Below are positions 12,616 through 35,490 of a stretch of DNA of 35,490 nucleotides, in pieces (positions within the stretch are counted from its first letter, which is position 1; each line of letters begins with the position of its first letter). This DNA is from Thermoprotei archaeon. Lineage in GTDB: Archaea > Thermoproteota > Thermoprotei > Thermofilales > B20-G17. The notes beneath the pieces were generated by a model. The model was not told the origin of the DNA and ran no database searches. It worked only from the letters and a program-made list of their open reading frames with translations. Position numbers and translations under genes: made by a program. Location: contig QMRH01000018.1 of assembly GCA_003650675.1 (NCBI GenBank), positions 1 through 35,490 of the forward strand. The letters run 5' to 3'.

Positions 12616-13671
12616 GTGCTTGATGGAATGTCTGAACCTTCAGAGGAAACTATATCTTCACTTATAGCCCGGTATAGAGGATACATGGATGAGGATAACT
12701 ATGTTTTATTCGAATCTTTCATGTCGTGGCTTGCTAATCAAGGTTTAAGGCCTTCAACACGATATCGATATGCTGGAATCATAGGATACTTCCTAGCATG
12801 GCTGTCCTCTAGGAATATAAAGATTTCAGATCTAAAGGTAAAGGATATCGATTTATATTTAAGCAGTGTTCACGGAAAGGGTTTAAAACACAGCACAGTT
12901 CACTGGTATGTTGTGGGCGTGAAGAAACTACTTCGATACCTGTATTATATAACAGATGATGAAAAATACAAGAAACTTTACAAGAAGATAAAGACACCTA
13001 GGTTAAACAAAAGCCTACCCGAAATCCTTTCACCCGAAGAAGTTTTAAAGATAATAACGAACTTCAGTTCACTGAAATACAAAGCACTCTATGCATTAAT
13101 TTATGAAACCGGTTGTCGAATAGGTGAAGCCTTGAACCTTAAAATAAAGCATTTAGTAGAAGATGAATATGGTTTTAAAGTATTCTTTAGCCGGAGTAAA
13201 AGCGAGGCAAGAGCTGTAAGATTAGTAGTATTTGCTGGCTTGATTAAAAAATGGTTAAGTATCCACCCGGAAAGGGATAATCCAGAAGCATACCTGTTCT
13301 TTGGAAGACACCCTCTCAAAAAAATGTCCCGTAGTGCTGCATTAAAAAACCTTAAAAAAGCTGCTTTAAAAGCAGGTATAAAAAAGAATGTTCATCCCCA
13401 CATTTTTAGACACACTAGAGCTACTGAACTTTATAGAATGTTTAAAGAACTTGAATTAATGAAATGGTTTGGATGGAAAACCCGGCGCATGATAGACGTT
13501 TACAGTAAGATAACACAGGAAGAGGTTGAAACCGTATATGTTAAAAATATTTTGAACGAGAAAAAGCATTCCCTTAGTGAAGAAGAAAAAACTGGAAAAA
13601 CTTGTCCAAAGTGCGGTAGAATTAGCACATTTTCCTCGAAATATTGTCATTTCTGTGGAACTCCCCTGTAG
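12616..13671 (+). CDS. Tyrosine recombinase/integrase with C-terminal zinc ribbon
   Basis: The 351-aa protein has an N-terminal SAM-like core-binding domain (about residues 13-125) and a catalytic domain with Arg168 (ETGCRIGEAL), Lys195 (SKSEARA), His262-x-x-Arg265 (HIFRHTRATEL), Trp287 (MKWFGWKTRR) and nucleophile Tyr296 (IDVYSKIT). A zinc ribbon (C330/C333, C344/C347) closes it. The set is complete, so it should be active in DNA strand exchange. Start candidates are GTG 12616 and ATG 12628. It could be a XerA-like chromosome recombinase or an element integrase; the odd neighbours and the zinc ribbon favour a resident element. No tRNA attachment site is visible. Confidence 0.92.
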   Translation: MLDGMSEPSEETISSLIARYRGYMDEDNYVLFESFMSWLANQGLRPSTRYRYAGIIGYFLAWLSSRNIKISDLKVKDIDLYLSSVHGKGLKHSTVHWYVVGVKKLLRYLYYITDDEKYKKLYKKIKTPRLNKSLPEILSPEEVLKIITNFSSLKYKALYALIYETGCRIGEALNLKIKHLVEDEYGFKVFFSRSKSEARAVRLVVFAGLIKKWLSIHPERDNPEAYLFFGRHPLKKMSRSAALKNLKKAALKAGIKKNVHPHIFRHTRATELYRMFKELELMKWFGWKTRRMIDVYSKITQEEVETVYVKNILNEKKHSLSEEEKTGKTCPKCGRISTFSSKYCHFCGTPL

Positions 13672-13728: not shown

Positions 13729-13965
13729 TCACAACTCTTTATCCAGTCCCGTATGTTTTGCCATTCTCTCCTCGAGGTGGTTTAGGGGGGATAAATAATA
13801 ACATTTAAGCACGTTGGGGAGTTCTCCTGTTCCGTCTGGCTTTATGAGCCAGACTTCGTCAGGGAGTGTTCGCGGGGAACGGGGCTCCACACATCCTGAC
13901 TTAAACAGATAATGTTCCTTGATACACTTTAATGTTACGCAGATCGAAAACTGTTGCGAGCCCAA
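13729..13965 (-). pseudogene. Doubtful 78-aa ORF, possible transposon-derived remnant
   Basis: The frame begins 3 bp after the protease stop codon. It reads through the GC-rich block as GCVEPRSPRTLPDEV and KPDGTGELPN, then continues to YYLSPLNHLEERM. Low-complexity Pro/Arg/Gly text like this is common at the C-terminus of IS200/IS605 TnpB proteins, where the DNA also encodes the guide RNA scaffold. I cannot confirm that family from memory. It may be a decayed tnpB 3' end or a chance reading of an RNA element. Confidence 0.3.
13813..13893. repeat. GC-rich hairpin element, copy A
   Basis: A perfect 8-bp hairpin GTCTGGCT/AGCCAGAC with a TTATG loop (13834-13854) is enclosed by the paired arms GTTCC (13829-13833)/GGAAC (13876-13880) and GGAG (13818-13821)/CTCC (13885-13888). 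The distal end (GGGGCTCCACACATCC) matches 14 of 16 bases at the right end of the window (35474-35489). The nested helices and the GC jump suggest a structured RNA or a transposon end. Confidence 0.5.
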
Positions 13966-35065: not shown

Positions 35066-35421
35066 ATGAAAAACTTTGTAATATTCATGGAACCGGCGGA
35101 GCAGGGAAAACCAGCCTCGCAGCGTCGTTTGGAAAGTGGATAATCAAGCACCAGGATTTGAAAGTATCATTTATAAATCTCGATCCAGGTGTAGAGGAGC
35201 TTCCTTATACTCCTCAAACAGATGTTAGAGAATACGTTAATGTTAGAGATGTTATGAGGAGGTATGGTCTAGGCCCGAATGGGGCGCTCATTAAAAGCAT
35301 AGACACGTTGCTTTAGTACAAGGATTTAATTAAAGAAAAGATAGGGAAAATGGACGCCGACTATATAATGGTAGATACCGTTCTGGCTCTCCGCTACTTT
35401 CATTGTTTTTGATGCATGTGT
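35066..35421 (+). pseudogene. Broken GPN-loop GTPase gene
   Basis: GPN-loop GTPases (XAB1/Gpn family) are dimeric and conserved in archaea. Here the ATG at 35066 (MKNFVIF) shifts frame near 35086, after which GTGGAGKTSLAASFGKW, NLDPGVEELPY, DVRDVMRRYGLGPNGALIKS (with the GPN motif) and DADYIMVDT follow in the second frame. This is broken by TAG at 35314. Another frame change and loss of the PGQ-containing segment precede FIVFDAC. The fragment then stops at a GC-rich element. It is either a true pseudogene or a poor-quality contig end. Confidence 0.75.
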
Positions 35422-35423
35422 AG

Positions 35424-35489
35424 TGGAGGGTCTTCCTGTCTCAGGGTTCATTGACGGGCTTTCTGGGGGGGACGGGACTCCCCACATCC
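35424..35489. repeat. GC-rich hairpin element, copy B
   Basis: The last 66 bp (TGGAGGGTCTTCCTGTCTC to GGGACTCCCCACATCC) align with copy A. GGAG/CTCC pairs are kept, and GTCTC pairs with GGGAC where copy A has GTTCC with GGAAC; one position changes from T-A to C-G, a compensatory change. The element lies inside the broken GTPase gene and is cut by the window edge. Confidence 0.5.
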
Positions 35490-35490
35490 A

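Follow-up and report, generated by a model that had tools for sequence, protein, structure and literature searches.

Miniature IS607-type elements with TnpB guide-RNA-like ends in a Thermoprotei archaeon

Introduction

The closest described counterparts of the sequences considered here are IS607 family elements that encode a TnpA serine recombinase and TnpB. ISXfa1 has a GG crossover, a fixed right-flank base that lies within the scaffold and a pseudoknot that is required for activity (PMC10711439). GG junctions, a reRNA that extends from the 3' end of tnpB to the right-end boundary and a scaffold pseudoknot are common to ISXfa1 and ISFba1 (PMC10711439, PMC11061315), and these properties recur in two short sequences, copies A and B, of a 35,490-nt stretch of DNA from a Thermoprotei archaeon (the window, meaning the whole stretch that was analysed). 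Unlike ISXfa1 and ISFba1, the window copies carry neither tnpA nor tnpB, and they are of thermophilic archaeal origin and show no Rfam match.

Short repeats related to IS607 elements have been reported earlier for Staphylothermus marinus, and the accessible portion of the 2009 paper records 14 MITEs of about 260 nt together with five IS607 elements and describes no guide RNA for the MITEs (PMC2678158). Further parallels are provided by the Haloquadratum PATEs, which are transposase-free, lack terminal inverted repeats, carry palindromes near their ends and in some cases arose by core deletion of tnpB-carrying elements, but which are of the IS605 type, whereas A and B are of the IS607 type with GG junctions (PMC3119063). 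The Sulfolobus elements SMN1 and SM3A are likewise short, non-autonomous Thermoproteota elements that are mobilised in trans; they differ in being linked to ISC1733 and ISC1058, and no reRNA is reported for them in the part of that article available to us (PMC3718332). In the portion of the literature that was covered we found no account of miniature IS607 elements that bear guide RNAs. Gene-less copies are reportedly mentioned in studies of the guide RNAs used by TnpB in IS605-type systems. The novelty here lies in recognising that miniature IS607 repeats, themselves known since 2009, appear to bear TnpB guide-RNA scaffolds, which would explain a class of small Thermoproteota repeats as scaffold carriers and connect such mobile repeats with RNA-guided nucleases.

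Copies A and B in the window

Copy A (13761-13962, minus strand) is a complete miniature IS607-type element of 202 bp, including a GG at each end, and its sense (minus) strand begins with GGCTCGCAAC and ends with GAGAATGG. The boundaries were set by the copies on contigs C35 and C12 of the host genome and by a short element on contig C103 of genome G023. TnpA and TnpB are absent from copy A and, since no stop-free run exceeds 67 codons, the copy must be a derivative and not an autonomous IS607 member. Its left end (13898-13962, minus strand), presumed to be the promoter side, is common to the C35 and C12 copies and is homologous to the left end of an IS607 element on G023:C159. The right end (13761-13897, minus strand) constitutes a reRNA (omegaRNA)-like scaffold region, the RNA of which would be read from the minus strand. 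Over 85 nt it has 88% identity to the right end of the G023:C103 element; it also matches the 3' terminus of tnpB on G023:C159 with 78% identity over 142 nt (BLASTN) and is matched by model R2 with E = 4e-45, copy A itself being among the input sequences of that model. Just upstream of copy A, at 12616-13671 of the window, lies a gene for a tyrosine recombinase-like protein with a zinc-finger motif (CPKCG...CHFCG) at its C-terminus.

Copy B (35378-35490, minus strand) consists of the right half of a miniature element of the B type, the contig terminating within the element. Its right end is a reRNA-like scaffold, again with the sense on the minus strand and with the junction GG at 35378. The start of B, CCGTTCTGGCTCTCC, is identical in four copies of the host genome that have unrelated left flanks. 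B-type left halves, beginning with GGGGGCAGAAACATA, occur on host contigs C68 and C47, and a 35-base overlap of 94% between the halves on C71 and C68, two separate contigs, suggests a full length of about 270 bp in the host. Copy B lies within a pseudogene of a GPN-loop GTPase (35086-35379, plus strand), the PF03029 match of which (E = 2.1e-24) contains a TAG and ends at 35379, at the element boundary. An intact paralogue is present at C15:32267-32980, and the homology breaks after ...MVDT, where the paralogue continues with PGQ; on this comparison the pseudogene is interrupted by B.

A sequence-only reading of the window had assigned the two copies to 13813-13893 and 35424-35489, extents that prove too small. 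The order of motifs that it gave, with GGAG, TCCT, an arm, a loop, the partner arm, GGGG or GGGA, CTCC and CACATCC, is found at both sites. Its count of two copies is correct within the window and fails for the genome. There are five A-type copies (C18, which is the window contig, C35, C106, C47 and C12), of which that on C35 is also complete (201 bp), together with a remnant on C9. The B type is represented by right-end halves on C18, C71, C45 and C9 and left-end halves on C68 and C47, amounting to at least four copies, and the four B-bearing contigs all terminate within the repeat or shortly past it. Both types are dispersed among unrelated flanks. The A copies on C106 and C47 (L053 and L054) end with GAACT followed by GTG, lacking the terminal GG, and both adjoin CACAG on the plus strand.

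A covariance model built exclusively from A-type copies recovered copy B of the window (E = 3.2e-7) as well as the sister of B on C71 (E = 8.7e-10), and a model built exclusively from B-type copies found the A-type copies of G023 with E = 4e-11; as measured by these searches, the likeness of A and B is beyond chance. Bacterial matches to a 20-base pattern were discarded as chance. Rfam yielded no relevant match in the window or in four related loci. TnpB RNAs are only partly represented in Rfam, and a missing match is therefore not a defining failure.

Relatives at the 3' end of tnpB

The same sequence constitutes the 3' end of tnpB at six loci in other genomes (L034, L051, L102, L138, L148 and L150), and at three of these (L034, L138 and L148) the tnpB terminus is a B-type right end. 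L034, from the MAG AUK061, is a decayed tnpB with the B-type stretch at its end. The element on G023:C159, from a Thermofilaceae MAG, encodes a truncated serine recombinase and a 407-residue TnpB and has A-type ends, with tnpB extending into the A-type stretch. The coding direction of tnpB in these relatives establishes that the RNA sense corresponds to the minus strand of the window, and not to the plus strand on which the motifs had originally been described. The stretch thus occupies the location of a reRNA: it lies on the coding strand of tnpB, at the 3' end of the gene, and reaches up to the right-end boundary. The earlier suggestion of a structured RNA or the 3' end of an IS200/IS605 tnpB was therefore correct in kind, given six tnpB-linked loci, and incorrect as to the family, which is IS607. 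The expectation of tnpB upstream of other copies is borne out in the relatives but not for the host copies, which are miniature deletion derivatives without tnpB.

A class-wide model search revealed B-like matches in 10 of 81 genomes, 31 of the matches being in G029 alone, and in a sample of the phylum matches occurred in 27 of 398 genomes. G029 carries tnpB-linked copies in addition to many short ones. At one of its loci (L067, G029:C4) tnpB is preceded by the HTH part alone of an IS607 TnpA (about 77 residues), the recombinase domain having been lost.

In the fragmented host assembly no A- or B-type tnpB was found and, because of the fragmentation, this absence is weak evidence. The two tnpB matches of the host (C27 and C98) are both of other types, and its IS607 genes comprise TnpA and TnpB on C27, within an element with other ends, and TnpA on C6. 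The latter lies in a 1000-bp IS607-like element (L058, C6:31417-32416) with an intact-looking TnpA and no tnpB, which ends with a P3-like hairpin (see below) followed by AAACGG. The left end of this TnpA-only element reads GGGGAAGAAAC, compared with GGGGCAGAAAC, and it could possibly be the mobiliser of A and B.

RNA structure of the right end

The scaffold comprises stem P2, the 3'-terminal hairpin P3 and a pseudoknot formed between the final six bases of the element and a hexamer in the first loop, with the pairings CCGTTC/GAACGG, CCGTTG/CAACGG and GGGTTC/GAACCC occurring in different members. Since the pseudoknot uses the last six bases, the terminal GG is part of both the junction and the scaffold. 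As in reRNAs, stem-loops and a pseudoknot adjoin the position of the predicted guide.

In copy A, all features being on the minus strand, the pseudoknot 3' strand GAATGG (13761-13766) is the element terminus and its 5' strand CCGTTC (13877-13882) lies within the P1 loop; all six pairs can form, one of them being G.U. Stem P2 extends over 13824-13866 (strands 13860-13866 and 13824-13829) and encloses a hairpin at 13834-13854 (GTCTGGC/GCCAGAC), and P3 covers 13768-13821 (strands 13809-13821 and 13768-13780) and is degenerate relative to G023. In copy B, also on the minus strand, GAACGG (35378-35383) is the terminus, including the junction GG, and forms five of six pairs with CCGTCC (35470-35475). 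Its P2 lies at 35435-35458 (strands 35453-35458 and 35435-35440) and is compensated, with CCCGTC/GACAGG in the window against CCCTCC/GGAGGG in L034. P3 of copy B (35389-35428, strands 35420-35428 and 35389-35397) has a nine-pair core with one A.C mismatch in the window copy and none in the C71 copy. In most A-, B- and CAGAACCC-type members P3 stops 7 nt before the terminus, and in the CACAACGG-type copies of G029 it is shorter or unclear.

A MAFFT alignment of A and B misplaced their differing hairpins, and a model-fitted alignment, made from 45 matches, contained too many gaps. As neither was usable, the strands were examined by a swap test in which, for 26 representatives, pairing with the own partner strand was compared with pairing to the partner strands of other sequences. 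The energies were -6.1 (own) versus -4.2 kcal/mol (others) for the pseudoknot, -8.4 versus -5.8 kcal/mol for P2 and -13.7 versus -5.9 kcal/mol for P3, the observed value being reached in 0 of 5000 shuffles in each case, the shuffles taking no account of kinship among the sequences. The pseudoknot, P2 and P3 covary across the 26 representatives. Nature thus offers a series of strongly covarying scaffolds in which the pseudoknot is built on the terminal bases of the transposon itself. The helix that had been proposed from the two window copies, GTTCC/GGAAC in A and GTCTC/GGGAC in B, is not among the conserved pairings. On the sense strand it has a C.A mismatch in B, and three of five pairs are possible in L034 and two of five in L118; throughout the B-type and more distant relatives only two to four of the five are held, so that the arms vary with loss of pairing, the outcome that the sequence-only reading had itself named as refuting.

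Folding of the sense strand compared with shuffled sequences gave z-scores of -1.3 and -2.0 for the window copies and of -6.3 and -4.9 for tnpB-linked relatives; the folds of single window copies are uninformative because these copies have decayed, and P3 carries mismatches in both. Among distinct P3 and pseudoknot stems on the sense strand, 33 A.C mismatches were counted against 13 G.U pairs (about 20 against 11 by a rough count of independent events). This excess is opposite to that expected from RNA selection and may have only decay and shared ancestry as its cause. The near-shuffle folding and the A.C excess together give no sign that the short copies are maintained as RNA. An RNA from the plus strand was also considered, since the plus strand of B folds better (z = -2.3) and A.C exceeds G.U on the sense strand, and it was ruled out by the linkage to tnpB.

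Mobility of related elements in complete genomes

The complete, single-contig genome G119 contains nine strong B-type matches. One is an IS607-type element of 1835 bp (L138) with B-type ends. It encodes TnpB and, in an intact-looking frame of some 213 residues, a TnpA that has HTH and serine recombinase parts. The other eight, giving a ratio of autonomous to short copies of 1:8, are 255-288 bp long and align to about positions 1-50, 1598-1654 and 1724-1835 of the 1835-bp element, such that they are made up of the two ends of that element and, between these, a short remnant of the zinc-finger region of TnpB. GG is present at both ends in all nine, as it is in the A copies on C18 and C35.

For each of the nine sites the two flanks were joined and used to search G213, a sister genome of the same genus, where five of the sites, among them the one that holds the autonomous element in G119, are unoccupied. 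The junctions of these sites show 0-3 base differences, with an extra 17-base gap at one. A GG lies at the junction or next to it, and the sites are compatible with a GG target dinucleotide or, at two of them, with AG, as in an IS607 crossover that leaves no longer target duplication. The G119 elements therefore move, the presence/absence variation having been observed in this genome pair and not in the genome of the window. The short copies share with MITEs and PATEs that they are short and gene-less, have ends as in an autonomous element and vary in presence between G119 and G213. The terminal inverted repeats of strict MITEs are absent; the ends, GGCAGAAAC... and ...CCAGAACGG on the same strand, show a direct-like resemblance.

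At a sixth site (L139, G119:C1:784 kb, compared with L162/L164 of G213), about 180 bp of a gene is missing in G119. The loss extends from one GG position to another, as if two GG targets had recombined, and the gene that is broken by the miniature element in G119 is continuous in G213.

Origin and possible function

We consider it highly probable that A and B are miniature, non-autonomous IS607 transposons that retain the guide-RNA scaffold end of tnpB. On the comparative evidence, the A/B-type elements are mobile, gene-less derivatives with a predicted TnpB guide-RNA scaffold. They most probably originated by an internal deletion that removed tnpA and most of tnpB and retained the left end, the GG junctions and the scaffold right end, and an IS607 TnpA would mobilise them in trans. 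Copies with intact scaffolds may be transcribed from a promoter in the left end, where TATA-like motifs, TTTATAAA and TTTAAATA, were recognised by eye in L027 and L045. The transcript would then serve as a guide RNA, with the DNA flanking the copy as guide, and cleavage of the unoccupied allele by TnpB supplied in trans could help to retain the copy.

Both window copies look decayed. There is good support for their having arisen from mobile elements in the past, but it is doubtful that they act as guides at present, in view of the five of six pseudoknot pairs in B, the P3 mismatches in both copies and the near-shuffle folding.

The strongest competing interpretation, to which we assign an even chance, is that the short copies are decaying MITE remnants, moved by TnpA alone, with a functionless reRNA-like structure inherited from tnpB; it shares its origin with the guide-RNA interpretation and differs on function only. 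It accords with the decayed pairing of the window copies, with A.C mismatches at least as common as G.U pairs, with the failure to find a cognate TnpB in the host assembly and with the two A copies lacking the terminal GG. It is less easily reconciled with the short copies of G119, six of eight of which retain a perfect 6-bp pseudoknot, with five of six pairs in the other two, or with the retention of P3 in many short G029 copies.

That A and B might be the ends of full-length tnpB elements which failed to assemble is improbable. Several contigs do break within the repeat, as multi-copy insertion sequences often cause; however, copy A is complete within its contig, as is the C35 copy, which refutes this reading for A, the length implied by the C71/C68 overlap resembles that of the complete G119 copies, and neither type of tnpB was found in the assembly. 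Still less likely is the original proposal of IS200/IS605-type ends, with an HUH transposase and single-strand hairpins. Fragments of Y1 transposases do occur on C22 and, beside a tnpB fragment, on C98, but copy and model searches of the host contigs revealed no A or B copy on C98, the junctions are GG, and the autonomous relatives carry serine recombinases with HTH domains. A host regulatory RNA or riboswitch family unconnected with transposons, which strong conserved structure in several copies might have indicated, has almost nothing to recommend it given the unrelated flanks, the insertion into a gene and the lack of an Rfam match, and is refuted by the unoccupied sites in the sister genome and the linkage to tnpB.

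Returning to the guide-RNA interpretation, a more speculative extension, which we advance tentatively, is that gene-less miniatures of hyperthermophilic archaea constitute dispersed guide-RNA genes with their own promoters, such that a single TnpB acting in trans could defend many insertions. The pairs of occupied and unoccupied sites in two complete genomes provide a testbed for the retention of non-autonomous copies by TnpB in trans.

Relation to the repeats of Staphylothermus marinus

The miniature repeats of G213, which we presume to be S. marinus, follow the same plan as A and B, with P2, ATGAA, P3 and a short terminal pairing. They differ in sequence and in their left end, AGACTATTTGCTTATTTGG, and right end, ...GCACGGGCAACCAC, and bear a greater likeness to the host IS607 element on C27. 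The TnpA- and TnpB-encoding element on C27 (L059) has left and right ends as in the G213 repeats (L171-L175) and, on the basis of these shared ends, the MITEs reported for S. marinus in 2009 probably belong to the IS607 group of C27.
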